The notes under the pieces: generated by a model
Databases searched by the model: none
The model's input: only the letters and a program-made list of their open reading frames with translations
What the model was told of the DNA's origin: nothing
From: Flavobacteriaceae bacterium
Lineage (GTDB): Bacteria; Bacteroidota; Bacteroidia; Flavobacteriales; Flavobacteriaceae
DNA length: 35,235 nucleotides
Direction: 5' to 3'
Assembly (NCBI GenBank): GCA_020854235.1
Contig: JADZFW010000151.1
Coordinates: 1-35,235, forward strand
Part shown: positions 4,906 through 26,711 of the stretch, piece by piece
How the letters are laid out: each line of letters starts with the position of its first letter
Numbering within the stretch: the stretch's first letter is position 1
Position numbers and translations under genes: made by a program

Positions 4906-5298
4906 ATGAACCCAAAAATATCCGCATTTCTAAGAAGATTTAGTTTTTTTCTCTTAGGATTGGCTTTAGGCATGATGTTATTGAACTTTTTTTTCAGTAA
5001 AAAAAACATCGAATTTGATTATTTACCCAATGCCCGCACTTTAAAAAGCATCCGCACCAAGCCACATCTGGTTTTTGCTCCCGAGGTTAAAACCTATATG
5101 ACTGTTCATCAAGTTGATTCTGTTCAAGTGATGAGTTTGTTGTACTATGGCGATGTCGATTTTCAAAAAAGTACTTTGAAAGAAATTGCTTGTCCCATTT
5201 ATTTTATCGAACCTACTTCCAAATCAGCTCCTCTGCAAATGTGGGTGGAACGATGTGATAGTGTTTCTACGGTGAAAGAAATCAAACTTCAAAAATGA
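4906..5298 (+). CDS. Small membrane-anchored protein (DUF4258-like?)
   Basis: A 130-aa protein with one N-terminal hydrophobic segment (residues ~12-29, FFLLGLALGMMLLNFFF) after positive charges, so it is inner-membrane anchored with the rest outside or periplasmic. The C-terminal half (VHQVDSVQVMSLLYYGDVDF, then KEIACPIYFIEP) resembles the DUF4258 fold, but I am unsure of this. The stop overlaps the next start by ATGA, so translation is coupled to the Sir2-type gene. The overlap implies shared expression, not necessarily shared function. Confidence 0.75.
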   Translation: MNPKISAFLRRFSFFLLGLALGMMLLNFFFSKKNIEFDYLPNARTLKSIRTKPHLVFAPEVKTYMTVHQVDSVQVMSLLYYGDVDFQKSTLKEIACPIYFIEPTSKSAPLQMWVERCDSVSTVKEIKLQK

Positions 5299-5978
5299 AA
5301 ACCCTAGTAGTCTTAACCGGAGCCGGCGTAAGTGCTGAAAGTGGTGTGCAAACCTTCAGAGATGCAGGTGGTTTGTGGGAAGGACATGATGTCATGGAAG
5401 TGGCTTCACCCGAAGGTTGGCGTAAGAATCCCGAATTGGTTTTGGATTTTTATAACAAACGGCGCGCGCAACTTTTTAAGGTCCAACCCAATCAAGGGCA
5501 TTTGGATTTGGTAGACCTGGAACGAGATTTTATAGTTCAAATCATTACCCAAAATGTAGACGACCTACACGAAAGAGCCGGTAGTGCTGCCGTTTTACAC
5601 TTGCACGGCGAACTCTTTAAAGTGAGAAGTGTATATGATGAAAATGAAGTTTTGGAATGGAAAAAGGATTTATTTCTGGGAGATGTAGGTAAGAATGGCG
5701 ACCAATTGAGACCCCATATCGTGTGGTTTGGAGAAGCCGTTCCACTCATTCCGACTGCCATAGAAATGGTGGAAGAAGCCGATATACTAGCCGTTATTGG
5801 AACTTCATTGCAAGTCTATCCTGCTGCATCCTTATTACATTATGTGAAAAAAGGAACACCTATTTATTATGTGGATCCCAATCCGGGGATTTCCGAATCA
5901 GCCTTTCCGCATCTGACCATCATCAGAGAAAAAGCAGGCATAGGAGTCGCTATCATGCGAAAGATGTTGGAACAATAA
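5295..5978 (+). CDS. NAD-dependent Sir2-type deacylase, SIRT5/CobB class
   Basis: Removes acyl groups from lysine using NAD. At 227 aa it is a minimal sirtuin core. Motifs: GAGVSAESGVQTFRDAGGLW (NAD loop, residues ~9-28), TQNVDDLHERAG, catalytic His in LHLHGE, GTSLQVYPAA and VDPNP. The FYNKRR segment contains the Tyr-x-x-Arg pair that marks class III sirtuins preferring succinyl- or malonyl-lysine. The protein has no cysteine at all, so the usual four-Cys zinc ribbon is absent; its place is taken by the stretch from VRSVYDENEV to GDVGKNGDQL. It is translationally coupled to the upstream membrane protein and convergent with the next gene. Confidence 0.93.
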   Translation: MKTLVVLTGAGVSAESGVQTFRDAGGLWEGHDVMEVASPEGWRKNPELVLDFYNKRRAQLFKVQPNQGHLDLVDLERDFIVQIITQNVDDLHERAGSAAVLHLHGELFKVRSVYDENEVLEWKKDLFLGDVGKNGDQLRPHIVWFGEAVPLIPTAIEMVEEADILAVIGTSLQVYPAASLLHYVKKGTPIYYVDPNPGISESAFPHLTIIREKAGIGVAIMRKMLEQ

Positions 5979-6582: not shown

Positions 6583-6951
6583 TTATCTTATTAATTTGTA
6601 ATCCCCAATTAATATTTCGGATGAAAGGTTTAAACGTATGGTTAAGTTTCGTATCATTTCAACAGTTAATTTTCTTTTACGATTCAAAACTTCTGAAACT
6701 CTACTTTTACCACCAATTACATCAACTAAATCAATTTGTTTGAGTTGCATTTCTTCCATCCTAATTTTGATGGCTTCAATAGGATCTGGAGCATCAATAG
6801 GATAATGTTTTTTTTCATATTCATCAATCATCAATCCTAAAATATCTGCTTCATCGCTTTCAACTGAACCGATGGCTGCATCAAATATTTGTTCCATTCT
6901 TTTTAACGCTTCTCTGTAATCAGATTCTGTTTTTAATGGTTTAATGTTCAT
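6583..6951 (-). CDS. higA: HigA-type antitoxin with HTH
   Basis: The antitoxin neutralises the preceding toxin by binding it and represses their shared promoter. It has 122 aa. The N-terminal half (KRMEQIFDAAIGSVESDEAD through MIDEYEKKHYPID) is the typical HigA/COG5499 leader. A Xre-like helix-turn-helix spans residues ~65-105 (MQLKQIDLVDVIGGKSRVSEVLNRKR). The start at 6951 (MNIKPLKTESD) lies 16 bp after the toxin stop; the longer frame to 6984 would overlap the toxin and adds MPKRYNLNKNK, which is unlike the family. Toxin-first order is the HigBA signature. Confidence 0.9.
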   Translation of the reverse strand: MNIKPLKTESDYREALKRMEQIFDAAIGSVESDEADILGLMIDEYEKKHYPIDAPDPIEAIKIRMEEMQLKQIDLVDVIGGKSRVSEVLNRKRKLTVEMIRNLTIRLNLSSEILIGDYKLIR

Positions 6952-7666: not shown

Positions 7667-7690
7667 TAAATAACGTTCTTATCCGTTATG
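7667..7690 (-). other. Degenerate attC-like site A1
   Basis: Read on the minus strand, CCATAAC and GAAC-GTTATTT flank 7-8 nt (ATAACG at 7670-7675 pairs with CGTTAT at 7684-7689). The GAAC|GTT junction matches the right box of better sites. The long inner arms are missing. It marks the left end of the recognisable array. Confidence 0.35.
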
Positions 7691-7806
7691 GTTTATAGAT
7701 GACGTTGAGCGATTTTTTAATTTTCGGTTGCTTCTGAATTTATGATATCATCAATTTTATAATACAGTCAAATTTGTCCTTTTTAATATTATTACTTTTT
7801 AGATTT

Positions 7807-8322
7807 TCATATATTGTCGTTAATAAATTTCTCTAATTTATTAGATTCTTGAAGTTCAATATAGTTTTCAATAGATTTTTTTGTGGTTTTCAAATAACGG
7901 TTATTTTTAAAATATTTTACATTTTTTTTATAAAACTCTATTACAGCTTTAACTCCAGCAAGATTTTTATTGTATTTATTCGAATAGTCTTTGTTTTCAA
8001 TCGAATATTTTGCCATTCCACCAATAAAAACAGCAATACAATCGGGTGAATCCATGAAGGTTGCGATTTCATTTGTTGTATCAAAAATAAAATAGGGGTT
8101 CTTATTTACCCATCCAAAGATAAAATAATAAGTTTTTGTTCTTTTCTCCATTTCTTCGTCTATGGGATTTTCAATTATCCAATCAACTGCTTTCACAACA
8201 TCGCCTTCCAAATTTAAATAATCAATTTCGGTTTCTAGTTTGTAATTATTTGGAATTATGAAATCTTGAGCGATTAAATTAAAAGTTGTGAATGTGAAAA
8301 AAAATATAAATGCTAGTTTCAT
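7807..8322 (-). CDS. Exported hypothetical protein, 171 aa
   Basis: It has a clear signal peptide (MKLAFIFFFTFTTFNLIAQ) and a mature domain of ~150 aa with a central IFGWVNKNPYFIFDTTNEIA segment and a C-terminal lysine-rich helical part (GVKAVIEFYKKNVKYFKNNR). It looks periplasmic. I recognise no family. The last recognisable cassette of the array on this side; the intergenic DNA on both sides is long (345 bp upstream with site A2, about 540 bp downstream). Confidence 0.8.
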   Translation of the reverse strand: MKLAFIFFFTFTTFNLIAQDFIIPNNYKLETEIDYLNLEGDVVKAVDWIIENPIDEEMEKRTKTYYFIFGWVNKNPYFIFDTTNEIATFMDSPDCIAVFIGGMAKYSIENKDYSNKYNKNLAGVKAVIEFYKKNVKYFKNNRYLKTTKKSIENYIELQESNKLEKFINDNI

Positions 8323-8474
8323 TTTATTTTTATTTAAATTTATTCAGACTTACGGCAAATTTTTTATAGTTTGTCAATTAGTTATACTTTTTGTTTTAGT
8401 TTAAAATTTTTGCTTTTCTTGTCTCATGTTTTTGACTTTAGCATCAGAAATCAGTATCTTAGGAATAGGGGGAA

Positions 8475-8561
8475 TTACTCACATCGTAAAACGTTAGTGG
8501 CAACCTTAATTTTAAGTACACTAAGTGTTTCTAAGTACTGTTTACGTGCTATTGTTTGCAT
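8475..8561 (-). pseudogene. N-terminal remnant of an AAA ATPase (DUF4143 type)?
   Basis: A 28-codon reading frame opens 4 nt behind a TATCTTTG promoter box (8566-8573). It reads MQTIARKQYLETLSVLKIK, then VATNVLRCE and stop. Bacteroidota AAA_14/DUF4143 ATPases begin in the same pattern (I.R..YL..L, then KV.TGVRRCGKS for the P-loop). If it is one, it has lost a few residues before the P-loop and everything after it, and its 3' part is merged with the left arm of site A2. The similarity is short and by eye. Confidence 0.4.
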
Positions 8562-8654
8562 AGAACAAAGATACGATAAATCCTAAAACTATTTAAAAAT
8601 TAAGACTTTTAGGAATTTCAGATTTCACTTTTTTGCCAAACGTCTGTTACTTGC
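8486..8654 (-). other. attC-like site A2
   Basis: Left arm GTAAAACGTTAGTGGCAACC (8486-8505), right arm TTGCCAAACGTCTGTTAC (8633-8650). On the minus strand the tail box is GCAAGTAAC (8646-8654), matching 8/9 the head box GCAGGTAAC (9054-9062) of the same cassette, gene 8668-9015. The 169-bp site is longer than its neighbours and contains a promoter box, the ATPase-like remnant and an extra CCTAAAA/TTTTAGG dyad (8582-8613). Confidence 0.6.
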
Positions 8655-8667
8655 TGCCTTACTTTTG

Positions 8668-9015
8668 TTAGTGAAGTTGTATTTCAATTTTTTTTCGTTT
8701 CGTGTCAATAACAAACCAATTTTGTTGGTCTGGATTGGGTACACATTCTTTAATGTCCAAGTTTCTTGCATATCGGCTTAAGGCCTTTTTACCAAATTTC
8801 AAAGTCAATTCATATTCGGTTTGTCCGTCTTTTCCTATATGAACTTTCAAAATCACTTGTCTATAGTCGTTTACGAATTTTGGAGAATAATAAAGTTCTG
8901 GTTGGTCTTTTAAAACTCCATCACACCAAAATCCTTTGATTTCGTCATCGTCTGAATACTCAAACGCATTGCAGATTTCACATTCTAAAAAATCGCAAAA
9001 ATCTCGGTCTATCAT
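8668..9015 (-). CDS. Hypothetical cassette protein, 115 aa
   Basis: A cytosolic-looking protein that begins MIDRDFCDFLECEICNAFEY and ends in a basic strand (DTKRKKIEIQLH). Early cysteines and the CDGVLKDQPELYYSP motif suggest a small alpha/beta fold of the immunity-protein kind, but no family can be named. The ATG at 9015 is chosen; the frame also has a TTG three codons upstream (9024). It is flanked by sites A3 (head) and A2 (tail), whose boxes complement each other 8/9. Confidence 0.75.
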   Translation of the reverse strand: MIDRDFCDFLECEICNAFEYSDDDEIKGFWCDGVLKDQPELYYSPKFVNDYRQVILKVHIGKDGQTEYELTLKFGKKALSRYARNLDIKECVPNPDQQNWFVIDTKRKKIEIQLH

Positions 9016-9053
9016 TCTCGTCAAATTAGTTTTGTTAGTTTGTCTTTTAGATT

Positions 9054-9126
9054 GCAGGTAACAGTTGGTAAATAGACATCCCGGACTATGGGCATTTCCG
9101 CATGGGCTTATTTGCTGTTATACGTA
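9054..9126 (-). other. attC-like site A3 (short form)
   Basis: A 73-bp imperfect palindrome. The left arm GGTAACAGTTGGTAAATA (from 9057) pairs with the right arm TATTTGCTGTTATAC (9109-9123), the left carrying 4 extra bases between the AAC box and the inner stem. The coding end of the lipoprotein gene (TTYNSK) runs into the right arm. Minus-strand right box: GTTACCTGC. Confidence 0.65.
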
Positions 9127-9665
9127 GTTAATTTGTCTAATAAGCATTCTCGTAATTTAATCATCTTCTTGTCTTTAGGAAGGAACATTTGTTGTTCAGT
9201 CGAGCATTCGTATATTAGAAATTCATTCGTCTCACCGAAATATTTGGCAAATTTTAAGTCCGAAATTTGACCGGGGTTTTCTTCAGTGAATTTTACAGAT
9301 TCTTTCACTTCTTCGCTATTTATGTAAAAATGCAATATAATTTCAGGATAATATTTATGACCATTTTTTCCATTATAGTTCTCCCCCAGTAACGTGTCTT
9401 CCAACTCATAGTCCGCTTTAAAATGTAAGTCGAAAATTCCATTTCCGATATGAGCAAGAAAGGTTTTCTTTTCTTCGGAATTTTCTTCCCAACCGGACCA
9501 TTGAACAGGCAGGCAAGTTAATAAATGCCTAGATATGTCATTTGCACATACTATTGTATCACTGCTAGAATAAACTGAGCCTTGTTGATTAACATTCTTG
9601 TCGGTTGAAGAATTACCGCAACTTATCAAGAGAGATGAGAACAAAAATATTAATGGATACTTCAT
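9108..9665 (-). CDS. Lipoprotein, 185 aa, unknown function
   Basis: The N-terminus MKYPLIFLFSSLLISCGNSS is a lipoprotein signal with lipobox LISC-G, so the protein is lipid-anchored in an envelope membrane. The mature domain (~165 aa) contains CLPVQWSGWEENSEEKKTF and repeated beta strands with many acidic residues. I recognise no family. The last codons are made from the right arm of site A3. Its start lies 15 bp after the right box of site A4, and a TATATTTG box (9743-9750) lies 78 bp upstream. Confidence 0.82.
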   Translation of the reverse strand: MKYPLIFLFSSLLISCGNSSTDKNVNQQGSVYSSSDTIVCANDISRHLLTCLPVQWSGWEENSEEKKTFLAHIGNGIFDLHFKADYELEDTLLGENYNGKNGHKYYPEIILHFYINSEEVKESVKFTEENPGQISDLKFAKYFGETNEFLIYECSTEQQMFLPKDKKMIKLRECLLDKLTTYNSK

Positions 9666-9679
9666 TCGGGTCTTATGAA

Positions 9680-9946
9680 TTACTGATAACGTCAGTTTGT
9701 CTAAAAGCCTCTATAATCAATTTACAAAGGCTTAATTTAAGACAAATATAAAGGATATAAAGGAATTCTTTTTGATTTTAATCTGATTTTATTTGGTGAC
9801 ATTTTAATTGATAAATTTTAGAATTATGAGCTTTAACTATAAGATAAACCTCCTTAAAATAGCTTCTAAAGAGGTCAAATTTTATGTTTTTTTGAAAATT
9901 GTTTTTAAAAATTGTGGGTTGTGCAACAGTTACGGCTGTTGTAGGT
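9680..9946 (-). other. attC-like site A4 (long form, duplicated at A10)
   Basis: Head box on the minus strand GTTATCAGTAA (9680-9690), tail box ACCTACAAC (9938-9946). The tail box complements the head box of its own cassette (10399-10407) in 8/9 positions. Next to it is the small dyad CAACAG/CTGTTG. The ~230-bp interior is AT-rich and carries the promoter box TATATTTG (9743-9750) and an AAGGAGG run. Bases 9693-10018 recur at 14282-14608. Confidence 0.6.
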
Positions 9947-10018
9947 AGTTTTTATTCTAATTCTTTAAATATTTTTGTGAATTTCAAATCGTTTGGGACT
10001 TTCAGTTGTCTCTTTCTC
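9693..10018. repeat. Copy A of a ~326-bp duplication
   Basis: Nearly identical to 14282-14608. It spans most of site A4 plus the last ~20 codons of the lipoprotein gene 9952-10374. Differences are scattered substitutions and a few small indels. Copy A keeps the complete gene, so it is the likely parent. Confidence 0.9.
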
Positions 10019-10374
10019 ACTTCGAATTGTGTTGATGTTAATTTCGTGCTTTCTGTATATTCTTTTTTCGAATTGTTATCAACTTTGATTATGTGATAGT
10101 ATGTCACCTTTTTGTTAACTCTGTTTATTGAGTCTTTTGGATGACTTTTCGCAATTATAAATTCATCATCATAACCAACTGCAAAAACAGTTTCCTCTAC
10201 TATTAAATCATTTTGATATTCTGCGGTATGATGCCAAATACTCATTTCGTCCATTGAATTGTTTGCAAACAGAGAATAATCTTCCGTTAAATTTTCTTCA
10301 ACTAAACCTGCCCCAAAATAACATGACTGAAATAGGAGTAAGGATAACAATGCATATTTCGCTAACGATTTCAA
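9952..10374 (-). CDS. Lipoprotein, 140 aa, TTG start
   Basis: A small predicted lipoprotein. The signal reads KSLAKYALLSLLLFQSCYF with lipobox LFQS-C. An in-frame stop lies directly upstream and no ATG precedes the signal, so TTG at 10374 is the only reasonable start. The mature part (~120 aa) contains MSIWHHTAEYQNDLIVEETV and ends VPNDLKFTKIFKELE. Family unknown. The head box of site A5 lies 25 bp upstream. A copy of its last 19 codons survives at 14542-14601. Confidence 0.78.
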   Translation of the reverse strand: MKSLAKYALLSLLLFQSCYFGAGLVEENLTEDYSLFANNSMDEMSIWHHTAEYQNDLIVEETVFAVGYDDEFIIAKSHPKDSINRVNKKVTYYHIIKVDNNSKKEYTESTKLTSTQFEVRKRQLKVPNDLKFTKIFKELE

Positions 10375-10398
10375 TTTTTATATAGTGGATTTTAAATT

Positions 10399-10534
10399 GC
10401 CTACAACGTTCCACCGCTTGGCGAGGTTACAAACTACGGAACTGATTATTTTCTATCAAAGATAAAATTTCTTGCGAAATGTAAACGTGAATTTACCACA
10501 AAATTCACATTCTTGCAATACGCTTGTTGTGAGT
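10399..10534 (-). other. attC-like site A5
   Basis: 136 bp. Minus-strand boxes: tail ACTCACAAC (10526-10534) and head GTTGTAGGC (10399-10407). The tail box is fully complementary to the head box of its cassette at 11016-11024 (9/9) but only 6/9 to its own partner. The loop contains TATCTTTG (10457-10464), 83 bp upstream of the next gene. Its interior (10438-10528) is almost identical to that of A7. Confidence 0.82.
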
Positions 10535-10540
10535 AGTTTT

Positions 10541-10984
10541 TTACCAAGCATTGTTTTGGTTTGTCCAATCAAATAAAAATATGAGTTGTTCTAATTCCAA
10601 AATGGCTTTATCAAGTGTTCTTTCATCTTTTGAATAATGGTTTGTTTCGACATTGTCAATTACGGACCTCATTAAGGCAAAATTTGCAAGAATTTCATGA
10701 GCAATATAATTTCGATATTCAACTACGCTCTCAAGAAAATGTATAAAGTCTGGTCGCAACCCTTTTGCAGCAAGTTCTTTTTTTGTTCTTCCCAATGTCC
10801 ATCTCTCCATTTCTTCTAACGTATTTCCATATTTTTCTTGATGAAGTTTTTTGAGACCAAATTCTAAAAGTTGAGCGACACCCATATACATAGCGTATTT
10901 TCCTAAGAAATCAAGATTCTCATACTTTTTAGTTCCATTTTGTGTTCCAGCTTGAATTTCTTCTCGCGTCAATTCTTTAGACAT
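10541..10984 (-). CDS. HEPN-like protein with RX4H motif, 147 aa
   Basis: A soluble, helical protein of 147 aa. The segment VVEYRNYIAHEIL contains R-N-Y-I-A-H, which fits the RX4-6H motif of HEPN domains, many of which are ribonucleases in toxin-antitoxin, abortive-infection and CRISPR systems. The helical arrangement before it (FLGKYAMYMGVAQLLEFGLK) also fits a HEPN four-helix bundle. The exact family is unknown, and some HEPN-like proteins with this motif are non-catalytic. It is a single-gene cassette between sites A6 and A5, with the stop 7 bp from the tail box and no partner antitoxin beside it. Confidence 0.75.
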   Translation of the reverse strand: MSKELTREEIQAGTQNGTKKYENLDFLGKYAMYMGVAQLLEFGLKKLHQEKYGNTLEEMERWTLGRTKKELAAKGLRPDFIHFLESVVEYRNYIAHEILANFALMRSVIDNVETNHYSKDERTLDKAILELEQLIFLFDWTNQNNAW

Positions 10985-11013
10985 ATTTCTGTGTTTACGG
11001 GATTTCTATAAAA

Positions 11014-11155
11014 TTACTCACAACGTTTCGCAGCTACAAGAAGTTGCGTACTTCATTCACTGACAATTACAAATATAGACAAAACTTTGATTCAATAATT
11101 ACCAATTCTGATAAATCCCAAGCCTAGCAATTTCTTGTAATTGCTGTTATCTGCA
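11014..11155 (-). other. attC-like site A6
   Basis: 142 bp. The inner arms CAGCTACAAGAAGTTGC (left) and GCAATTTCTTGTAATTGC (right, from 11127) pair over ~17 bp with two mismatches. Tail box TGCAGATAAC complements the head box of its cassette at 11724-11733 in 10/10 positions. The right box on the minus strand reads GAAAC|GTTGTGAGTAA. The loop holds a TATATTTG box (11070-11077), 86 bp upstream of the HEPN-like gene. Confidence 0.85.
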
Positions 11156-11156
11156 G

Positions 11157-11708
11157 TTATAATTCAAGCAATTCATATTCATTCAGAGCATCTATCCAAA
11201 TGTTTTCTTTATTAATTTCAATTGCTTTCTTTACGAGTGAGCGAATTATATTTTGAAATAATTCATCATGATTTATGAATTGAATAAATATTTTCGAATC
11301 TTCAACACTTAAAGGTTTTGAGTTTTCTTTAAAATCACAACATCCATATCCATCAAAAGATGTTCTAATAAGAAATACTAAATTTTCATCAGAAACATCA
11401 AAGTCGAGAAAAACAGAACCATCTAAACATCCTAAATAGTAATCCGCTTTTCTGGTTATAGGCATTGTGGTTTTGAAAAAAATAATGCCTCTATCGATTG
11501 GAATTTCAATTATTAAATTCCTTTTTGAATCAAAGAAAGAATTGTTTTCAAAGATTATTTCTTCGTCCATTTGCATTTTGGACAATTTTTCTACAAAATT
11601 TTTAGTAAACTCTTTAATTTTTTTGCTTGGATTTGTTATTCCTTCATCCTGCATTTTTTTTCTAATTATATAAATATTAAGAAAATGTTTTACATCTAAG
11701 TTTTTCAT
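11157..11708 (-). CDS. Hypothetical cassette protein, 183 aa
   Basis: Cytosolic-looking, with no signal peptide. The N-terminal ~60 residues are basic and helical (MKNLDVKHFLNIYIIRKKMQ), followed by a beta-rich core (NLIIEIPIDRGIIFFKTTMP; YYLGCLDGSVFLDFDVSD) with a conserved-looking TSFDGYGCCDF motif, then an acidic helical tail. I recognise no family. The start lies 16 bp after site A7 and the stop 2 bp before site A6, a very tight cassette. Confidence 0.78.
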   Translation of the reverse strand: MKNLDVKHFLNIYIIRKKMQDEGITNPSKKIKEFTKNFVEKLSKMQMDEEIIFENNSFFDSKRNLIIEIPIDRGIIFFKTTMPITRKADYYLGCLDGSVFLDFDVSDENLVFLIRTSFDGYGCCDFKENSKPLSVEDSKIFIQFINHDELFQNIIRSLVKKAIEINKENIWIDALNEYELLEL

Positions 11709-11723
11709 GTTTTTAGGAATAAT

Positions 11724-11860
11724 TGCAGATAACGTTCAGGCGTTTGGCTAGGTTGCGAGTTTCGGAACTGATTATTTTCTATCAAAGATAAAAATTCTTG
11801 CGAAATGTAAACGTGAATTTACTACAAAATTCGCAATCTTGCAATACGCTTGTTACCAAC
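11724..11860 (-). other. attC-like site A7
   Basis: 137 bp. Left arm AACGTTCAGGCGTTTGGCTA then GGTTGCGA; right arm TCGCAATCTTGCAATACGCT then TGTTACC. They pair along their length once four bases (GTTC) are looped out next to the left AAC. Minus-strand head box GTTATCTGCA, tail box GTTGGTAAC. The loop has TATCTTTG (11783-11790), 75 bp upstream of the next gene. Confidence 0.82.
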
Positions 11861-11862
11861 AT

Positions 11863-12537
11863 TTATTCTCCAATTTTCACTTCTACTGCTTCATTACTTT
11901 CTATTCCTTTGCTGTTGTCTTTTAATAAAACTAAATCTTTATTTACAAATTTTATCCAATCACTTGAATAATATTGTTTTTGCCCTACAAGACTATCAGG
12001 CACAATTTCAAAGCTCAAGCTTTTGATTGAATTTCCACCGCCAATGGATGTTCCAAAAAAGGTGGAAGGATTAAACCCAACTAAGTTTTTATCTAAATCT
12101 TTACCGTCTGTCTGCTTCACGATTGGTCTTGAGTAAGTTTTATTAAAAGTCCACTCGGTCAAATACCCAATTCCATTGCTGTCAACAGTCAAAACATTGT
12201 CTCCCACATTTGATAAGACTAAATTGATTTCACCTTTATATCTGTTGGGGACTATAATTGTCAAGGTTGGGGAATACAATTGGTAATGGAAGATTAAAAA
12301 AGAAATTGCTATCGTAATTGAAAATATGGTCAAAAAAGATGTCCGCTTAAAAAAAAGTTTTAAAAGCACTGTCACAAATAAACAACCTAGAATAATCCCA
12401 ACAATCATCATTCCTCCAAGAAAAAGTCCAGACAAAATCATTCCACCTGGAACATTTGTCAACTTGAAGAGCAATGTTGCCAAAAGTCCGACTGATAAAA
12501 GTCCGAATATGATTTTTAGTTTACGGTCTGTAGTCAT
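11863..12537 (-). CDS. Membrane-anchored hypothetical protein, 224 aa
   Basis: The N-terminal ~95 residues hold three predicted membrane helices (IIFGLLSVGLLATLLF; GGMILSGLFLGGMMIVGIIL; FLTIFSITIAISFLIFHY). A ~130-aa beta-rich domain follows, presumably outside the cytoplasm (PTLTIIVPNRYKGEINLVLS, GIGYLTEWTFN, FFGTSIGGGN). I recognise no family. It is a single cassette; the stop is 3 bp from site A7's tail box. Confidence 0.8.
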   Translation of the reverse strand: MTTDRKLKIIFGLLSVGLLATLLFKLTNVPGGMILSGLFLGGMMIVGIILGCLFVTVLLKLFFKRTSFLTIFSITIAISFLIFHYQLYSPTLTIIVPNRYKGEINLVLSNVGDNVLTVDSNGIGYLTEWTFNKTYSRPIVKQTDGKDLDKNLVGFNPSTFFGTSIGGGNSIKSLSFEIVPDSLVGQKQYYSSDWIKFVNKDLVLLKDNSKGIESNEAVEVKIGE

Positions 12538-12558
12538 AATTGATGGTATCGGATTAGT

Positions 12559-12686
12559 GTAGGTAAAGTGGCAGTTTCTTCAAGAGAATTCTCGATAAAA
12601 TTACAAAATTTCCAACAAACTACTTCAACATCTTTAATGCCTCAAACCGCCATTTATAAAATACCGTGTTACAGGCGTTATCAATT
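12559..12686 (-). other. Degenerate attC-like site A8
   Basis: The head box candidate on the minus strand is TTTACCTAC (12559-12567), 7/9 complementary to its cassette's tail box GTTGGTAAC at 11852-11860. The tail candidate is TTGATAAC, overlapping the stop of gene 12681-13280, followed by an AACGCC/GGCGGTT dyad. The inner arms are poor. It was placed mainly by position between two cassettes. Confidence 0.4.
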
Positions 12687-13280
12687 TTCTAATTTATTTA
12701 TTAAAACAGGTAGCCTATAATTCAACTGATTATATTCTCGCTTTATTTCATTTCCATTTTTGTCGATTTGGATTAAGTATTTATCAACTACTATGTTTTT
12801 ATCCTTGTAAATAACTTTCTCTAAAGTGTCAGATTTCCTTATAACAAATCTATTGGTAGTTAAAACATCATCAAAATTATCTCTATCCACAACTATAAAA
12901 CTATCTATCAATTCATAAGTTCCATAAAAATGGGTTCTACTTGCCCAACTACCGCTAATTATAACATAATCCCCGTTCTTCTTAAAATCAGCATATCCAC
13001 CAAAAATTTGAGCTTTGATTAATGTCTCGGAATTTACTTTAGTTTCGTAAAAAATGGAAATTCCAATATTTAAAATTAAAATTAAAAGACCTACAATAAA
13101 GGTTGAATAATTACTTTTCGTGTTTTTCAATTTCACTATTGTTTTTCCAAAAATTATGATCCAAGGAATCCCCAATAATGCATATATGAATACTTGAAAT
13201 ATATTATCATAATGATAAGATTGGTAAAGAGTGAAAGCAAATAGACTTCCTAAAAGAATTAAGATTATTTTTATTTTCAA
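12681..13280 (-). CDS. Membrane-anchored hypothetical protein, 199 aa, TTG start
   Basis: Three N-terminal hydrophobic segments (IKIILILLGSLFAFTLY; FQVFIYALLGIPWIIIFG; FIVGLLILILNIGISIFY) precede a ~120-aa beta-rich domain (GGYADFKKNGDYVIISGSWA, THFYGTYELIDSFIVVDRD). The layout resembles the neighbour at 11863-12537. The DxxDxFVI-like strands recall small periplasmic response domains, but no family is named. The first codon is TTG at 13280; no ATG exists between the upstream in-frame stop and the first membrane segment. The 96 bp before it hold only a poor site. Confidence 0.75.
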   Translation of the reverse strand: MKIKIILILLGSLFAFTLYQSYHYDNIFQVFIYALLGIPWIIIFGKTIVKLKNTKSNYSTFIVGLLILILNIGISIFYETKVNSETLIKAQIFGGYADFKKNGDYVIISGSWASRTHFYGTYELIDSFIVVDRDNFDDVLTTNRFVIRKSDTLEKVIYKDKNIVVDKYLIQIDKNGNEIKREYNQLNYRLPVLINKLEN

Positions 13281-13376
13281 TTCAATATTTTTTATTTAGT
13301 TTCTTAATGACTTTGAACTTTTTTCAATTAGAATATGTGGACTTATCGCTTGTGGTTGATGAGTAAGTAGATCTTA

Positions 13377-13658
13377 TTACGAATAGAAACTCCAAAGATT
13401 TCTTAACCTTTGAGCGGATTCACTTGAAATTTCACTGGACGTTCTTATTATTGTTTTCCCATCTGAATTTTTTACCGCGTAAATGAGTCCATTACTTATG
13501 TTGTTTTCACGTACAATATCTACACAATCATTTATAAATTTTATGTTTTTATCACCTTTTACGTGTCTAACCTGTGAATTTTTTACTTCAATAATAAAAA
13601 CAGGATTAGAACTTATTTTACAAAGAAATAGCTTGATTGAAAGAAGAATGTTATTCAT
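13377..13658 (-). CDS. DUF3634-like small protein, 93 aa
   Basis: A hydrophobic N-terminus (NNILLSIKLFLCKI) is followed by the pattern FIIEVKNSQVRHVKGDKNIK, then FINDCVDIVRENNISNGLIY and SSEISSESAQRLRNLW. This order (VKNG, F..C..I...N.I.G.IY, S..IP....QRIRN.W) is what I recall of DUF3634, a small membrane-linked family best known from gammaproteobacteria and of unknown function. Membrane association is likely. After the stop, TTACTCATCAAC matches the head box of site A9 in 10/12 positions with one gap, so this gene also behaves as a cassette. Confidence 0.75.
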   Translation of the reverse strand: MNNILLSIKLFLCKISSNPVFIIEVKNSQVRHVKGDKNIKFINDCVDIVRENNISNGLIYAVKNSDGKTIIRTSSEISSESAQRLRNLWSFYS

Positions 13659-13700
13659 TTGTTTTTTATTCTTAATTATTTATCAAATGTTGGAATAATT

Positions 13701-13842
13701 ACTAATAACGGTTTGGCGTTTGAAAAAAAAACGGATTTTGTAACACATAATGGTCTGTTAAAACTAGGCTTGATACGAAGCACAAAGCTTGATTTAACCA
13801 CTGAACCTCCAATTTCTTGTAAGTGCTTTTAGCGGTTCGGCT
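13701..13842 (-). other. attC-like site A9
   Basis: 142 bp, the usual length. Minus-strand boxes: tail GCCGAAC (13835-13841) and head CC|GTTATTAGT (13701-13709). The inner arms are weakly paired. It lies between the stop of gene 13863-14237 and the start of the DUF3634-like gene. No -7 box is seen in its loop. Confidence 0.55.
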
Positions 13843-13862
13843 TTCTTGTCTATAGTTTTCCG

Positions 13863-14237
13863 TCATTTTATTTTTCTGTAATGTCTTATAGCTAAAATGG
13901 ATACAACTATAAACGGAATAGTTGAAATTATTATTTTGATATTCATACTCATTAATCCAACAATGAACATAAATCCTAAAAGTAAACTTAATCCTGCAAT
14001 ACTAATGTATGTCAGTATTTTACTTGGTGTCTTTTGGAATAAAGTAATTAGCAATAATATTTGACCCATTAAGGGGATTAATGTGAATGGATGAATTACA
14101 GAAGTCGGATTTGTAAAAAGCTTTTGAATTATTTCAATCTCTCCTGCAAAAAGAAATATATGGCTCCCGCCACCCCATTCCAAATATCCTAAAAGCGAGG
14201 TGATGATTAAGAGTAAGTTTATAATTTTACTTTTCAT
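13863..14237 (-). CDS. Small integral membrane protein, 4 TM, 124 aa
   Basis: Four predicted transmembrane helices: residues ~5-22 (IINLLLIITSLLGYLEWG), ~48-66 (IHPFTLIPLMGQILLLITLF), ~73-95 and ~100-117. Short loops and a basic tail (RHYRKIK) put the C-terminus in the cytoplasm. The EWGGGSHIFLFAGE motif after helix 1 may be family-specific, but I cannot name the family. Its upstream site is the duplicated A10, with a TATATTTG box at 14332-14339, 95 bp before the ATG. Confidence 0.8.
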   Translation of the reverse strand: MKSKIINLLLIITSLLGYLEWGGGSHIFLFAGEIEIIQKLFTNPTSVIHPFTLIPLMGQILLLITLFQKTPSKILTYISIAGLSLLLGFMFIVGLMSMNIKIIISTIPFIVVSILAIRHYRKIK

Positions 14238-14281
14238 TATGTTGTTTAATTTTTATATTGTCGTTTTAAGACCACTACCGG

Positions 14282-14536
14282 CAGTTTGTCTAAAAACCTC
14301 TATAATCAATTTACAAAGGCTTAATTTAAGACAAATATAAAGGATATAAAGGAATTCATATCGATTTTAATCTCATTTTATTTGGTAACATTTTATTTGA
14401 TAAATTTTAGAATTATGAGATTTAACTAATAAATAAACCTCCTTAAAATAGCTTCTAAAGAGGTCGAAAATTTTATGTTTTTTGAAAATTGTTTTTAAAA
14501 ATTGTGGGTTGTGCAACAGTTACGGCTGTTGTAGGC
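14282..14536 (-). other. attC-like site A10 (copy of A4)
   Basis: The tail box on the minus strand is GCCTACAAC (14528-14536). It does not match the head of its present cassette at A11, but it is a 9/9 complement to the head box at 10399-10407 belonging to the gene whose tail was copied. The head-side end diverges from A4 right after AAACTG. Confidence 0.6.
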
Positions 14537-14541
14537 AGTTT

Positions 14542-14601
14542 TTATTCTAATTCTTTAAATATTTTTGTGAATTTCAAATCGTTTGGGACTCTCAGTTGTC
14601 T
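14542..14601 (-). pseudogene. 3' remnant of a second copy of lipoprotein gene 9952-10374
   Basis: The last 19 codons plus stop (RQLRVPNDLKFTKIFKELE) are intact, with one change (K to R) from the complete gene. The 5' part is missing and the frame overlaps the stop of the neighbouring lipoprotein gene by two bases. It can have no function as a gene; it marks a recombination junction. Confidence 0.88.
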
Positions 14602-15067
14602 ATTTCTGTCTCCCTAAATAATAAATTACATCTTTATTCTTTGTTTTAAGTTCCAAGTCAAAACTAATACTGTCTTGCATTAAACGTGCTTCGTAAATGC
14701 TGTCTGTAAACGTTCTATTTATTTCAGCACTTTTATCTCCTGTCAATCTAATCAAGAGCAAGTCATCTTTCAAAGTCCAGTTGACTACCTGCTTTTCTTG
14801 TGATGGATATGTAATAATAGCAGAATTGTCGCTTTTAAATTCAATAATCTTGCAAACATTTGCTGTCATTGTAACACCGCCAGAACTCGTTGCACAATTT
14901 GTCCAAACTCCTAAAATATCTCTATTCGGTAAGTTTATTGAAGTCTGCAAACTGTCTGATGATTGTAAAGCCTGCTTCTCAGATTTATTTGTAGCCTTGT
15001 TGTCAGCTTGACCGCATGATGCCGTCAGAAATACCAGTCCAAGAATGAAATTTGTTATGTGTTGCAT
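14600..15067 (-). CDS. Lipoprotein with lipocalin-like domain, 155 aa
   Basis: The signal MQHITNFILGLVFLTASCGQ has lipobox TASC-G. After a Ser/Asn/Lys-rich linker, the mature domain starts RDILGVWTNCATSSGG and continues with alternating strands (VCKIIEFKSDNSAIITYP, QVVNWTLKDDLLLIRLTG). This layout, with 'LxGxW' at the start and a later 'W.l.dd.L.l', is typical of small lipocalin-like lipoproteins of Bacteroidota. Ligand unknown. Its 3' flank is not its own: it joins the copied tail of another cassette within two bases of its stop. Confidence 0.8.
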   Translation of the reverse strand: MQHITNFILGLVFLTASCGQADNKATNKSEKQALQSSDSLQTSINLPNRDILGVWTNCATSSGGVTMTANVCKIIEFKSDNSAIITYPSQEKQVVNWTLKDDLLLIRLTGDKSAEINRTFTDSIYEARLMQDSISFDLELKTKNKDVIYYLGRQK

Positions 15068-15084
15068 GTGTCGTTTTTAAAATT

Positions 15085-15221
15085 GTCACTTATATCCCGG
15101 TGCTAAGCGAGGTCGTGGTGAATACGAACTGCGTACGCTCAGCAATATAAAATATTTTCGTGAATAACAATTTACCGGTGACTAAAAATGCCAACGATCT
15201 CGCTTAGCGCCTGTAACCGAC
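15085..15221 (-). other. attC-like site A11
   Basis: 137 bp. Perfect arms GCTAAGCGAG (15102-15111) and CTCGCTTAGC (15199-15208) extend to ~17 bp with one mismatch. The tail box GTCGGTTAC (rc of 15213-15221) is 7/9 complementary to the head box of its cassette, 15712-15720. Spacing from box to stem is 4 on the tail side and 8 on the head side. The head box is altered (ATAAGTGAC in place of GTT). Confidence 0.72.
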
Positions 15222-15229
15222 TGGCGCAA

Positions 15230-15685
15230 TTAGAAACTGCCACGTCCTGAAACTTTCAGTTCATAATTTTCATTAACCTCAAGTTCGAGGGAGCCATTTG
15301 TGCAAGTATTTATAAAACGAAATATAGAAATTTTATTTTTTGTTTCAAAGCTGTATAAAACGATTTTCCCACGTCTACATTCCCCTCTAACTCTTTGTGC
15401 GTCATTTTCAATATCAATCTTACTATTATTAATAATTTTCAATTCACTACAATTTGTTTTTATTGAAATAGTGGAAAAAACATAATTAGTATTATTATAG
15501 ATAGCAGTATTTATAAATAAGCTATCAGGTTTTCTGCAGATTCTAAAATCAGATTGAAAAGTCGAATCATTTAAGCAAGTCGCTAATTTTTTCAAGTAAT
15601 TATCTGACTTAGCACTTTGTCCAAAATTGAGTAATGGATAAAAACATAATGAATAAAAAATTACTCTGATAAATATTGATTGCAT
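15230..15685 (-). CDS. Exported cysteine-containing protein, 151 aa
   Basis: The signal peptide ends FYPLLNFGQ (residues ~1-23). The mature protein has six cysteines (KLATCLNDS, DFRICRKPD, IKTNCSEL, RGECRRGK, INTCTNGS), probably disulfide-bonded in the periplasm or outside, and beta-rich segments (YVFSTISIKTN, KIVLYSFETKNKISIFRF). I recognise no family. The stop lies 9 bp before site A11's tail box. A TAAATTTG box in site A12 (15776-15783) lies 91 bp upstream of the start. Confidence 0.8.
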   Translation of the reverse strand: MQSIFIRVIFYSLCFYPLLNFGQSAKSDNYLKKLATCLNDSTFQSDFRICRKPDSLFINTAIYNNTNYVFSTISIKTNCSELKIINNSKIDIENDAQRVRGECRRGKIVLYSFETKNKISIFRFINTCTNGSLELEVNENYELKVSGRGSF

Positions 15686-15711
15686 AATTGTTGGAGATTT
15701 TTTAAGCGCTT

Positions 15712-15849
15712 GCCGGTAACGATCTGCATGCTAGCGATGGGCGCAAAACTGAAGCACTGAACTGCAAGCCTATTACAAATTTATAAAAGAAATACGAACT
15801 TCCATATTTACGCTGAACCAGCGACTATCGCTAGCACGCTGTTACTGGC
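15712..15849 (-). other. attC-like site A12
   Basis: 138 bp. Perfect arms TGCTAGCGAT (15729-15738) and ATCGCTAGCA (15827-15836) extend to 16 bp with two mismatches. Tail box GCCAGTAAC (rc of 15841-15849) is a 9/9 complement of the head box of its cassette at 16534-16542. Head box GTTACCGGC. Box-to-stem spacing is 4 on the tail side, 8 on the head side. The loop has TAAATTTG (15776-15783). Confidence 0.88.
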
Positions 15850-15951
15850 TGTAGCTTTATTGTGCTTGTCAGGCTAAGGTCAGTCGAGTATTTATTGTCA
15901 GTCTTAGTGCAAATTGGTGATAAAGTCTTGCTGTCTATACAATTCTATTTT

Positions 15952-16506
15952 CTAATGGATTTTACTTAATATTTTCAATTCTTTTCTTGTGAGCTTTCTA
16001 TCGAATTGCCATTTAGAGTCTTTAAACACTTCAATATATCCATTTTCATTATTAAAAATATATCTTAATGTCCCTTCTGGTTTATAGTGGTCTTCAACAA
16101 ACCATTTAAACTTTAGTTCTTGCTTTTCTGCTTCAGTCAAATGGCTGTCAGTAATTTTAATTGTCTTAATTTGTTCTTGAATCTCTTTCCCATTGACCAA
16201 TATTTTAGGTGTTTCTATTGTGATTAGTCCACTTTGCGTGGGTCTTAAAATATATGTCCATGTTGTTGTTTCTGTTTTGATACCATCATGTAGTGACTTA
16301 GTTGAACTTATATTAGGTCCGCTTACAATTTTTACACCTTCAAATCTAGGTTGTTTTGCAAGTCCCGTGTCAAAGTCCATTTTTATAATTACTTTGATAG
16401 TTTCTTCAAATTTATATTCGTCTTTCTCTATTTGAAGAATTACAGTTTGTCCAAATATTACATTAAGATTCAGTAATAGTGAAATGATAAAAATTGTCAG
16501 TCTCAT
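15952..16506 (-). CDS. Exported BatD-like domain protein, 184 aa
   Basis: The start at 16506 gives the signal peptide MRLTIFIISLLLNLNVIFGQ; the frame opens further up to 16626, but that part is site A13 DNA. Residues ~20-120 follow the BatD (oxygen-tolerance) domain: FEETIKVIIKMDF, PRFEGVKIVSGPNISSTKS, TTWTYILRPTQSGLITIETP, ILVNGKEI. BatD proteins are normally 500-600 aa membrane proteins in bat operons with VWA-domain partners. Here a single domain is carried alone with a short helical tail and no membrane anchor. The stop is 103 bp from site A12, the longest 3' gap in the array. Confidence 0.75.
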   Translation of the reverse strand: MRLTIFIISLLLNLNVIFGQTVILQIEKDEYKFEETIKVIIKMDFDTGLAKQPRFEGVKIVSGPNISSTKSLHDGIKTETTTWTYILRPTQSGLITIETPKILVNGKEIQEQIKTIKITDSHLTEAEKQELKFKWFVEDHYKPEGTLRYIFNNENGYIEVFKDSKWQFDRKLTRKELKILSKIH

Positions 16507-16533
16507 ATTATCTAGTTTTTTTGTCATGTTATT

Positions 16534-16666
16534 GCCAGTAACGATTGCGGTATGGCCAGTAAGGGATTGCGGGCGATTTCCTATCAGGTTACACGAAAAG
16601 TTGAAGCGAGTTACAAACCTTCGCAAACCACTGAAACCCTTATTGGCTATATTGTGTGTTGGGCGC
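16534..16666 (-). other. attC-like site A13
   Basis: 133 bp. The arms TATGGCCAGTAAGGG (16551-16565) and CCCTTATTGGCTATA (16637-16651) pair with two mismatches. Tail box GCGCCCAAC (rc of 16658-16666) is a 9/9 complement of the head box of its cassette, 18265-18273, more than 1.5 kb away. Its match to its own head box GCCAGTAAC is only 5/9. It fits the integron RYYYAAC (GCCCAAC) consensus exactly. Confidence 0.9.
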
Positions 16667-16669
16667 TGC

Positions 16670-18217
16670 TTAATTTTTAAATGTCGTATTACAATATGGA
16701 TGAGTTAATTGTCCATTATCAGCCAAACCAATTCCACCATCTTCTTTTCGTTCAATGTGGTCAATTGAAATTGCATTCTTATGAAGATACCCTTTACATA
16801 TTTTACATTTTAGTCCATTCTTAATTGCCTCCCTAATATATACTTCAGATTTCGTGTCCGTTGTAAAGTCCTTATAACCAAACTTATCTTCTGATTCTGG
16901 TTCTAATTTAATAAATTTAAATTTTTCAATTTTGATAATATTTTGTAAAAATTCATTAATTGATTTACCACTTTTCAAATCATTTATAAGCATTATCAAC
17001 AAATCAACAACATGCGGAATACTTCTTGAAGCACTTCGGAAATTCCTTGTTATTTGGGTCAAAATGTAATCAGTTTCAAGCAAAAACTTCTCAAATTGTT
17101 CTCTGACTCTAATAAAGTCATTAAATAAGTTCTTTTGCTCAAGTTCAAGTATTAAGGCAACCATATAATAAAACGATGCCGGTTTATGCTTACCTTCAAT
17201 AGAATAGAAATATACAATTGGGTGTAAACCTAATGATGATGGATGAACACTATTTATTCGCCAAGCAATTTTTCTTGCTTGTCTTAAATAATTGATAGTT
17301 ATATTACCTTCTTTATCATCATCAATCGTTTTCGAAAAATTATCGTCTATTCTATTTGACATATTAACGAATTCTAAAATCAGCGGCAAACTCTGGGCTG
17401 AAAATAATTTGCCACCTAAAGGTATATCCAAAGTCTTAACAGGTGTTTTTAATACTGGACTATAAATTATTTCATGAATCTCCTTAGAAAGTTTTTGAAT
17501 TTCCGCTTGATTTTCAGCAGAAAAGTCTGCCCAATATTTGTGTCCTTGTCCGCCTCTGATTATTCCTCTTGCCGCAATACAGTTTGGTTTTTTCCTTGAC
17601 TGCAATATTTTTAATTCAGTTGGGTCAATTTTAGAGGCCTGTTGATTAATTTTAAAAAATGAATTTTCTGCTTTTTTAGCATCACCATCTACCCATTGAA
17701 CTTGTATTGAATAGGCTCCCAGATTCTTTGCTCTTTCAATAAAAATTGGATTTGGTTTGGAATCATTTGCTGCTGAGATTATTTCTTTGTAAGGCCCAAT
17801 CTTCTTTTTAATTAAATCTCGTGTCTTATTCGCAAGGTCAATCTGTTCTTCACTTACAATCCCATTGTAAAATTTCCTAGAAATTTCACCATCACCGTAG
17901 TCGTCATTAATCCACGAAATTAATGCACTCAATCTGTGAGCGCCATCAATTACAAAATATAATCCAGTTTGACTTCTCCATAATATTATTGCAGGAATTA
18001 ATTCTCCATTTATAAAACTCTCAATAAATTCAAGAATCTTTTTACTTTCCCATTCATTTGTTTCTCTTTGAAAATCAGGTTTTCTAAGAAATGGGTAAAA
18101 GAATCCGCCCGTGAAATTTGTAATTGATATAGAGCTAAATAAATTAGTAGAGTTTTGTACTCCAGCTATTTCGAAATCTTCTCTAGGTATCAGGGCATCT
18201 AAATTTACTTTTGACAT
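16670..18217 (-). CDS. DUF262-HNH nuclease (GmrS/D-like), 515 aa
   Basis: Two domains. The DUF262 (GmrSD N-terminal/ParB-like) domain covers roughly residues 30-250: YPFLRKPDFQRETNEWESKK, then IPAIILWRSQTGLYFVIDGA with HRLSAL, where DGAHR corresponds to the DGQxR nucleotide-binding motif. The C-terminal HNH nuclease has CKICKGYLH, SIDHIERKEDGG and HPYCN, giving paired cysteines, the catalytic IDH and the HxxCN end. DUF262 proteins include GmrSD and SspE-type phage-defence nucleases, so anti-phage restriction is plausible; a standalone HNH form is common and unproven. The stop is 4 bp from site A13. It is by far the largest cargo of the array. Confidence 0.87.
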   Translation of the reverse strand: MSKVNLDALIPREDFEIAGVQNSTNLFSSISITNFTGGFFYPFLRKPDFQRETNEWESKKILEFIESFINGELIPAIILWRSQTGLYFVIDGAHRLSALISWINDDYGDGEISRKFYNGIVSEEQIDLANKTRDLIKKKIGPYKEIISAANDSKPNPIFIERAKNLGAYSIQVQWVDGDAKKAENSFFKINQQASKIDPTELKILQSRKKPNCIAARGIIRGGQGHKYWADFSAENQAEIQKLSKEIHEIIYSPVLKTPVKTLDIPLGGKLFSAQSLPLILEFVNMSNRIDDNFSKTIDDDKEGNITINYLRQARKIAWRINSVHPSSLGLHPIVYFYSIEGKHKPASFYYMVALILELEQKNLFNDFIRVREQFEKFLLETDYILTQITRNFRSASRSIPHVVDLLIMLINDLKSGKSINEFLQNIIKIEKFKFIKLEPESEDKFGYKDFTTDTKSEVYIREAIKNGLKCKICKGYLHKNAISIDHIERKEDGGIGLADNGQLTHPYCNTTFKN

Positions 18218-18264
18218 ATCAATTTATATTTTGTTATCATGTTGCAGGATGCTTTTCTTAAGTT

Positions 18265-18310
18265 GCGCCCAACGTTCCTATAACCGCAATCAATTGCGCA
18301 TAATGTTAAT
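18265..18310 (-). other. attC-like site A14 (upstream end of array)
   Basis: A short site. Left box GCGCCCAAC then GTTCC; stem TATAACCGCAAT (18279-18290) with ATTGCGCATAAT; right box GTTAAT. On the minus strand it reads GGAAC|GTTGGGC, an exact GTTRRRY match. A degenerate second copy of the stem (TAAACGCAGTTAATTGCAGG) lies 40 bp further right (18321-18340). No gene precedes it, so it may be an attI-like or array-edge site. Confidence 0.72.
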
Positions 18311-18344
18311 ATAAGTTCGATAAACGCAGTTAATTGCAGGTAAA

Positions 18345-18668
18345 TTATCCTTTAACGAGTAAAATTGTTTTTACATCTATTGTAATTCTGCAACTTTCCA
18401 AGCATTTTCAAACATCACTTTGTTTTTTATAAGTTACTTAAAACCCATTCAGCAATTACAACAAACCTCTATTTCTTCAAAACAACACAATGGGTAAAGG
18501 GTAATCTTTTTTATCACAACAAATATCATAAATATTTCTTTTATAATCACAAAATACAGAATTATTTATCTTCAATTTTTCTTTTTTTTATTGCATGTAA
18601 AAAATTCTTTGAAATTATTCCAAAAGTTTCTTAAAACACAAACGTGGCATTACACATAGCATTTTTGT
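18345..18668. other. Gene-free AT-rich stretch
   Basis: About 320 bp between the cassette array and the first 21-bp tandem array. I see no gene, recombinase remnant or RNA gene, only A/T runs and one short 'cccattcagc / aatgggtaaaggg' segment. Confidence 0.7.
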
Positions 18669-18941
18669 TGGAACTCGTTGCCCGAACTATGGAACTCGCT
18701 GCCCGACTCATGGAACTCCTTGCCCGACGCATGGAACTCGTTGCCCGACGTATGGAACTCGTTGCCCGACTGTTGGAACTCCTTGCCCGACGCATGGAAC
18801 TCCTTGTCCGACGCATGGAACTCGTTGCCCGACGTATGGAACTCCTTGCCCGACGCATGGAACTCCTTGCCCGACGCATGGAACTCGCTGCCCGACGTAT
18901 GGAACTCGTTGCCCGACGCATGGAACTCGCTGTCCAAACTT
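18669..18941. repeat. 21-bp tandem array, block 1 (13 units)
   Basis: Thirteen units of exactly 21 bp. Each starts TGGAACTC, continues with (G/C)(T/C)TGCCCGACG and ends in a variable C/T-A. The last unit degenerates into TGTCCAAACTT. Because 21 is a multiple of three and the unit lacks stops, several frames on both strands stay open (for example heptads of MELVARR); substitutions do not favour any frame, so I treat it as non-coding. A 104-bp spacer follows (18942-19045). Confidence 0.95.
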
Positions 18942-19045
18942 GGTTACGCTCTACCCAAATCCCATTGATTCCCACTAAACCATAACGATGGCAATTCCAT
19001 CCCAATAACCCAATAACTTAATAACTTAATAACTCATTTAAACTG

Positions 19046-26706: not shown

Positions 26707-26711
26707 CAGCT

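Follow-up and report, generated by a model that had tools for sequence, protein, structure and literature searches.

The 35,235-nucleotide stretch of DNA analysed here (the window; contig JADZFW010000151.1 of the Flavobacteriaceae bacterium assembly GCA_020854235.1) contains an array of genes and palindromic sites that resembles the cassette array of an integron without its integrase. The gene run lies on the minus strand, from about 18273 to 7807, and comprises 14 open reading frames (ORFs), mostly small, of which three pass a Pfam cut-off (GmrSD N-terminal domain plus HNH, BatD-like and DUF3634), one matches DUF3997 weakly and ten belong to no family. Between most of the ORFs, from 16666 to 10399 on the minus strand, lie eight palindromic sites of 133-141 bp (16666-16534, 15849-15712, 15224-15085, 13842-13702, 12677-12542, 11861-11725, 11154-11017 and 10533-10399), and the G+C content per kb is lower in the array (0.25-0.34) than in its flanks (0.33-0.43). 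An earlier note on this DNA had described minus-strand genes with imperfect inverted-repeat sites between them, and this description holds. Its count of thirteen genes, each followed by a site, does not: no site lies between genes 6 (13658-13377) and 7 (13280-12681), which are 96 nt apart, and neither a covariance model nor a reading of the ORFs and sites of the window revealed one after gene 14, the last of the run. Nor are the sites uniform, as two are composite (264-266 bp), one is short and weak (9126-9054) and one measures 173 bp (8654-8482). The exact boxes GCCCAAC (inside 16666-16658) and GTTGGGC (18273-18267) are present as claimed and prove to be the opposite ends of one cassette, cassette 1; two boundary boxes are degenerate, with ATA at 15093 and GAT at 12550 in place of GTT. 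The features of the array, in the direction of its genes, are listed below.

18315-18337, minus strand: second, upstream attI-like copy (GCAATTAACTGCGTTTATCGAAC); rank 5 in the same matrix scan as the head.
18271-18298, minus strand: attI-like head, palindrome CGCAATTGATTGCG plus GTTATAGGAAC, then the GTT of cassette 1; matrix rank 2 of 70,430, position set independently by the cassette 1 boundary.
16543-18273, minus strand: cassette 1, with a GmrSD N-terminal domain plus HNH gene at 16670-18217 (PF03235, PF01844); start against R'' 6/6.
16534-16666, minus strand: recombination site 1, 133 bp; inverted repeat, model match.
15721-16542, minus strand: cassette 2, with a BatD-like gene from 15952 to the ATG at 16527 (PF13584); signature 6/6.
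15712-15849, minus strand: recombination site 2, 138 bp; inverted repeat, model match.
15230-15685, minus strand: cassette 3 gene, no Pfam family; signature 5/6.
15085-15224, minus strand: recombination site 3, 140 bp, 3' boundary degenerate; E 5.5e-6, outside model training.
14600-15067, minus strand: gene 4, without a Pfam family; a copy of the gene 11 tail comes after it (Pfam and repeat searches).
14272-14537, minus strand: composite site 4, a copy of site 11, 266 bp (repeats D2 and D4).
13863-14237, minus strand: gene 5, no Pfam family (Pfam search).
13702-13842, minus strand: recombination site 5, 141 bp; E 6.6e-4, outside model training.
13377-13658, minus strand: gene 6, DUF3634 (PF12321).
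12681-13280, minus strand: gene 7, no Pfam family (Pfam search); no site separates it from gene 6.
12542-12677, minus strand: recombination site 7, 136 bp, weak; E 0.076, and 0.095 in a later scan.
11863-12537, minus strand: cassette 8 gene, no Pfam family; signature 5/6.
11725-11861, minus strand: recombination site 8, 137 bp, TATCTTTG in loop; inverted repeat, model match.
11157-11708, minus strand: cassette 9 gene, no Pfam family; signature 6/6.
11017-11154, minus strand: recombination site 9, 138 bp; inverted repeat, model match.
10541-10984, minus strand: cassette 10 gene, no Pfam family; signature 6/6.
10399-10533, minus strand: recombination site 10, 135 bp, TATCTTTG in loop; homologues of it on three further contigs of this genome.
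9952-10374, minus strand: cassette 11 gene, weak DUF3997 (PF13162, 23.1 bits, below the cut-off of 25); signature 5/6.
9683-9946, minus strand: composite site 11, 264 bp (repeat search).
9108-9665, minus strand: gene 12, no Pfam family (Pfam search).
9054-9126, minus strand: site 12, short and weak, overlapping the end of gene 12; signature 4/6.
8668-9024, minus strand: gene 13, no Pfam family; signature 5/6.
8482-8654, minus strand: site 13, 173 bp, TATCTTTG in loop; only 15.2 bits, E 0.35.
7807-8322, minus strand: gene 14, at the end of the run; no Pfam family and no site found 3' of the gene.

An integron cassette circle carries one complete site, and the opening bases of a cassette are therefore expected to be complementary to the R'' box at the other end of that cassette. 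Cassette 1 begins with GTTGGGCGC, has GCGCCCAAC as its R'' and matches at six of six positions; outside the fixed triplet, cassettes 2, 9 and 10 also match at 6/6, cassettes 3, 8, 11 and 13 at 5/6 and cassette 12 at 4/6, and cassettes 4 to 7 lack such a clear boundary for reading the signature. Over this array and the related arrays described below, 78 of 103 consecutive site pairs are perfect and the mean is 5.34 of 6, compared with 2.16 for the site's own 3' end and 2.48 for the best of 2000 permutations. The seven model-found pairs of the window score 6, 5, 3, 2, 5, 6 and 6; the cassette signature is present, and it is worn in parts of the window. The breakpoints that cassette movement should leave at the GTT boxes were examined on cassettes duplicated within the genomes of relatives, not between strains as the earlier note had envisaged, and they do fall at GTT. 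In one related locus (L039), a whole cassette of 557-560 bp is present in three copies, two in tandem and one apart, that are 96.8-99.8% identical and have different flanks, and the identity begins and stops at GTT; L076 carries a 342-bp cassette twice (99.1% identical), and in L040 a 271-bp piece that begins at GTT is present three times. At the window itself, synteny of the left flank with the same genus ends at 6474 (genome G002) or 5948 (G003), and no clean empty site could be read because the right-flank gene was not found in the three genomes of the same genus (G001-G003). The window also holds a repeat of about 331 bp, 89-94% identical, at 9687-10017 and 14276-14607, which consists of the tail of gene 11 and its site; the copy at 14.5 kb sits behind a different ORF, and therefore recombination also occurred within a gene tail.

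A simple scan for AAC...GTT stems gave four window sites scores of 37.5-41 on the minus strand, the highest score from six Markov-shuffled versions of the array being 33; it also picked up two palindromes beyond the array, an unrelated one at 19-173 (53) and one at 21874-22023 (34), and the scan alone is thus not specific. A covariance model (R1) of 11 sites, four from the window, recovered on the same strand four window sites that were outside its training set (E 5.5e-6, 3e-4, 6.6e-4 and 0.076); site 1 was left out of the training because its 3' arm was misaligned. With site 10 as a query, blastn matched sites on three further contigs of the window's own genome and a single site in a second genome of the family; homologous sites from blastn and from the stem scan had gone into the modelling, and the model was later rebuilt from 47 sites (R2). 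Genome-wide counts obtained with R2 are lower bounds. There are at least 21 sites on eight contigs of the window's own genome (E up to 0.1), and sites occur in at least 41 of 60 genomes of relatives and in at least 142, about half, of 296 genomes drawn evenly from the phylum, taken as Bacteroidota from the named relatives in the protein search and from the tree. Among the matches listed, none of 20 genomes from other phyla has sites, and eight of these genomes hold an integron integrase (IntI) with its characteristic insertion. Within the genus of the window, G002 has at least ten matches, G001 at least one and G003 none among the matches listed. The one-contig genome G017 has at least 57 sites, the listed ones in two clusters at about 2.22-2.26 and 2.75-2.79 Mb, the second of which is headed by a recombinase at 2.794 Mb. 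Other site types were also seen: a second size class of about 187-210 bp is mixed with the 130-bp class (L039 209-399, L046 13828-14024 and others), and a short cassette that is repeated in L040 has 90-bp sites of a different type (3443-3532, 5234-5323 and 6640-6729). Two further repeats or structures lie outside the array: a 21-bp tandem repeat, twelve-fold, at 18627-18983 just ahead of the array head, and a cobalamin riboswitch at 26700-26916 (95.2 bits), the only Rfam match in the window at gathering scores.

The structure of the sites differs from that of canonical attC sites. Of 149 sites, 146 were kept after three overlapping opposite-strand matches had been dropped, and the stem counts refer to 134, the other 12 having no clear AAC/GTT. 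The first 19 nt of the stem contain no bulge in 86 of the 134 sites, one in 40 and two in eight, and 20 of these bulges are at the last position of this stretch, 19; in the window's own genome 9 of 11 sites are free of bulges there, whereas all 13 control sites from four canonical IntI loci have one to four. Extrahelical bases are therefore not the rule in these stems, and 48 of 134 have one or two. A/C pairs, corresponding to bottom-strand T.G wobbles, are more frequent than G/T pairs (315 against 70) and are present at stem position 15 in 121 of 131 sites and at position 10 in 90 of 133; in 111 of 134 sites the bottom strand is the one with the more stable fold. A bias of the training set towards A/C sites is possible. 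On the top strand, one of the two A/C columns is unpaired in 70 of 73 sites and the other in 46 of 74. Covariation speaks for the stem: in an alignment of 74 sites, which was fitted to the structure, 80.9% of cells are paired compared with 56.9% after shuffling, and the covariation score is 0.523 compared with at most 0.083 after sliding. The loops of related sites hold inner hairpins. Seven of 16 model-found loops in the window's own genome, including those of sites 2, 8, 9, 10 and 13, contain on the gene strand TAnnTTTG, which we take to be a Bacteroidota promoter-like motif (none on the other strand; shuffled maximum five), and cassettes may thus carry promoters inside their sites. This is a local observation only: four of the seven belong to one subfamily with similar loops, and as a feature of the wider family the idea was rejected, since 138 loops hold 12 forward and 11 reverse occurrences.

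In relatives, the same sites follow a gene for a tyrosine recombinase. There are 29 such loci (11 plus 18), selected because one site or more lies 3' of the recombinase gene and on its strand. The tyrosine recombinase at these loci has an N-terminal extension and lacks the insertion of about 42 residues typical of IntI. The insertion region measures 64-69 residues in all 29 array-heading recombinases and 106-107 in eight of eight IntI proteins, so the additional domain of IntI (I2, or patch) is absent. Of 20 of the best integrase-like places, which were read, 11 have sites directly 3' on the same strand, L040 has them on the other strand and eight have none, several of these eight lying at contig ends. 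An alignment of the 11 recombinases then led to 80 named loci by protein likeness alone, in which 68 of 72 sites are located 3' of the recombinase gene and share its strand; the four exceptions are two upstream in L071 and two in L098. In L071, sites occur on both sides of the recombinase gene (900-2723 and 8359-10325). Among Bacteroidota loci with at least 1.5 kb downstream, 16 of 24 have sites (the site-free L116 is counted among the 24), as do two loci with less than 1.5 kb (L048 and L050). At seven loci (L044, L051, L054, L065, L068, L073 and L075) the contig ends no more than about 100 bp past the recombinase stop, a pattern to be expected where repeated arrays interrupt an assembly. Genera with array-heading recombinases include Lutibacter, Mesonia, Zunongwangia, Algibacter, Flavobacterium, Winogradskyella, Seonamhaeicola, Aquiflexum and Arundinibacter. 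Across 60 genomes, three or more sites and the N-terminal domain of the recombinase occur together in 27, sites only in nine, the domain only in three and neither in 21 (p 3.4e-6). These recombinases point towards their arrays, with L040 opposite to the rest, and not away from them as in a canonical integron. In a tree of 59 proteins, IntI forms one supported branch with no array-heading Bacteroidota recombinase inside; the deeper order of the tree does not separate an ancestral from an independent origin of the recombinase. One recombinase, L086, is set off from the others in the tree and lacks an attI where one would be expected, and its link to the system is doubtful.

A palindromic attI lies between the recombinase and the first cassette in most of these relatives. 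The start of the first cassette was predicted from its own R'' as a 9-mer with one mismatch allowed, and falls 27-155 bp after the recombinase stop in 22 of the 29 loci; it lies farther away in six and was not found in L035. Dealing the predictions among the loci 2000 times gave a mean of 2.0 and a maximum of eight. Two conserved palindromic types stand ahead of the predicted start: sorted by eye, the 22 putative attI sites comprise ten of a first type (palindromic ATAAACACACTAGTGTGTTTAT plus 6 nt, then GTT), ten of a second type, some of them variants (palindromic ...GATATAACnA, then GTT), and two that fit neither. In the window, CGCAATTGATTGCGGTTATAGGAAC directly precedes cassette 1. A matrix of the ten first-type (class A) attI sites, all from other species, placed this head second among 70,430 positions, both strands included, and ranked another copy, which lies 40 bp farther upstream, fifth; their scores of 14.2 and 12.6 are below the 22-30 of the ten reference attI sites. 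Thus, the window has an attI-like head without a recombinase: tblastn with 20 recombinases found no remnant upstream of the head (the best listed match, E 0.079, is elsewhere), and neither an IntI above the TIGR02249 cut-off nor an N-extended recombinase was found in its genome, which is 76% complete. The suggestion of integron-like cassettes without an integrase in the window is accordingly supported, both by these searches and by the signature and the GTT-bounded duplications in relatives. Since the array keeps an attI-like head, it reads as an integron without its recombinase, and it looks as if head and cassettes have been kept and the enzyme has not; either the recombinase was lost or its gene lies in the missing quarter of the assembly. 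In G002, of the same genus, a recombinase of the N-extended type is broken (L043, 9527-10575, with stops), and no site of this kind was found in the 20 kb around it.

Our data make it very probable that the window holds a headless array, the site family of which lies elsewhere 3' of an insertion-less tyrosine recombinase that likely moves cassettes via the folded bottom strand. We infer the function of sites and recombinase from sequence, and the neighbouring recombinase is presumed to be the cognate enzyme. In the proposed mechanism, the bottom strand, when exposed in replication or transfer, would fold, and the recombinase would bind the R and stem boxes of the hairpin, reading polarity from the T.G wobbles and the asymmetric spacer. 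These wobbles are base pairs in the bottom strand and A/C mismatches in the top strand, and they would mark the strand to be used and so replace extrahelical bases. Reading of the hairpin may fall to the N-terminal extension, for which the XPB N-terminal and HARP domains are the nearest to the predicted fold; the strand would be cut beside GTT in the bottom-strand hairpin, and the cassette would be joined to attI or to another site. According to PMC2727003, the first extrahelical base of attC is absolutely conserved, and a Vibrio site that had none of these bases could still be given polarity by its spacer; a role for wobbles and spacer is therefore not far-fetched.

Three other explanations were weighed. 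It is improbable that the housekeeping XerC and XerD move the cassettes via hairpins, as for CTX phage, with the neighbouring recombinase being incidental, given that this leaves unexplained both the order of recombinase, attI and array at 22 of the 29 loci and the joint occurrence across 60 genomes, even though the window's own genome has a XerC-like protein (read from search results, not named by a family search) and contains its 21 or more sites with no N-extended recombinase found, and bulge-free stems resemble double-stranded sites (PMC4792948). We give little credence to an ordinary cluster of attC sites lacking an integrase (CALIN), in which canonical attC cassettes remain after a standard IntI has been lost. 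The R'' and R' boxes and the cassette signature are as in integrons and the genome has no IntI above the cut-off, but none of 40 relatives has one either (the weak, partial matches are unspecific, occurring in 39 of 40 relatives and 14 of 14 control genomes), sites at canonical IntI loci are all bulged and those here mostly not, R2 has no matches in the 20 genomes of other phyla, eight with insertion-bearing IntI, and the related arrays are headed by an insertion-less recombinase. The label CALIN in its ordinary sense, which the earlier note had applied, is thus unsupported, as the stems mostly lack extrahelical bases, the recombinase of relatives lacks the insertion and an attI-like head is kept. 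That the palindromes are transcription terminators or repetitive extragenic palindromic (REP)-like repeats can practically be dismissed: they lie between genes and related loops have inner hairpins, but this offers no reason for GTT-bounded duplications or for the cassette signature, which in the main refutes it.

With the headless array and its insertion-less recombinase as the preferred reading, we lean slightly towards a wider view, in which Bacteroidota harbour a second widespread integron lineage that never needed I2 and combines an insertion-less recombinase, an XPB/HARP-like N-terminal reader, a palindromic attI of its own and attC sites whose bottom strand is marked by two T.G wobbles instead of extrahelical bases. 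PMC8138268 describes the IntI insertion as not fully conserved in the integron-like subgroup, yet essential for integron function, and PMC4792948 calls its selection before attC sites existed a 'chicken-egg paradox'. A cassette system mostly without both the insertion and extrahelical bases makes this question testable; if our view is true, the second lineage may represent a stage that preceded I2 and extrahelical bases, or else cassette capture may have been invented independently. In addition, a large store of mobile small genes in Bacteroidota now has an identifiable candidate shuffling system. Reviews list Bacteroidota among the phyla with integrons (PMC8618304 and PMC9668308), and searches of open PMC text turned up neither arrays of this kind nor an integron recombinase without the insertion; we regard the system as provisionally new.

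Compared with known systems, these arrays share with integrons (IntI-attI-attC, including sedentary chromosomal ones) a recombinase, an attI, tandem and mostly one-gene cassettes, R'' and R' boxes, the cassette signature, a more stable bottom strand and cassette duplications. They differ in a recombinase that lacks the insertion of about 42 residues, has an N-terminal extension and points towards the array, in stems mostly without extrahelical bases and with two conserved T.G wobbles, and in an attI that is a palindrome of its own. Like a CALIN, the window array has no integrase nearby; unlike one, it has sites of another structural type and keeps an attI-like head. An atypical direction of the integrase is also known from Treponema chromosomal integrons, but the enzyme there is called IntI, whereas the recombinases here are without the insertion. 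The core domain is shared with the family NF040815 ('site-specific tyrosine recombinase/integron integrase') and XerA-like recombinases; three of five tested recombinases pass the NF040815 cut-off of 220 bits (L028 232, L040 225.4 and L031 223.5) and two fall below (L039 214.1 and L032 189.3). An N-terminal extension and a downstream array set the present system apart from these proteins, and L040 has neither the extension nor that order. Finally, XerCD hairpin integration of CTX phage similarly uses a bulge-free folded single strand as a substrate (PMC4792948), but here the sites form cassette arrays with a recombinase of their own.

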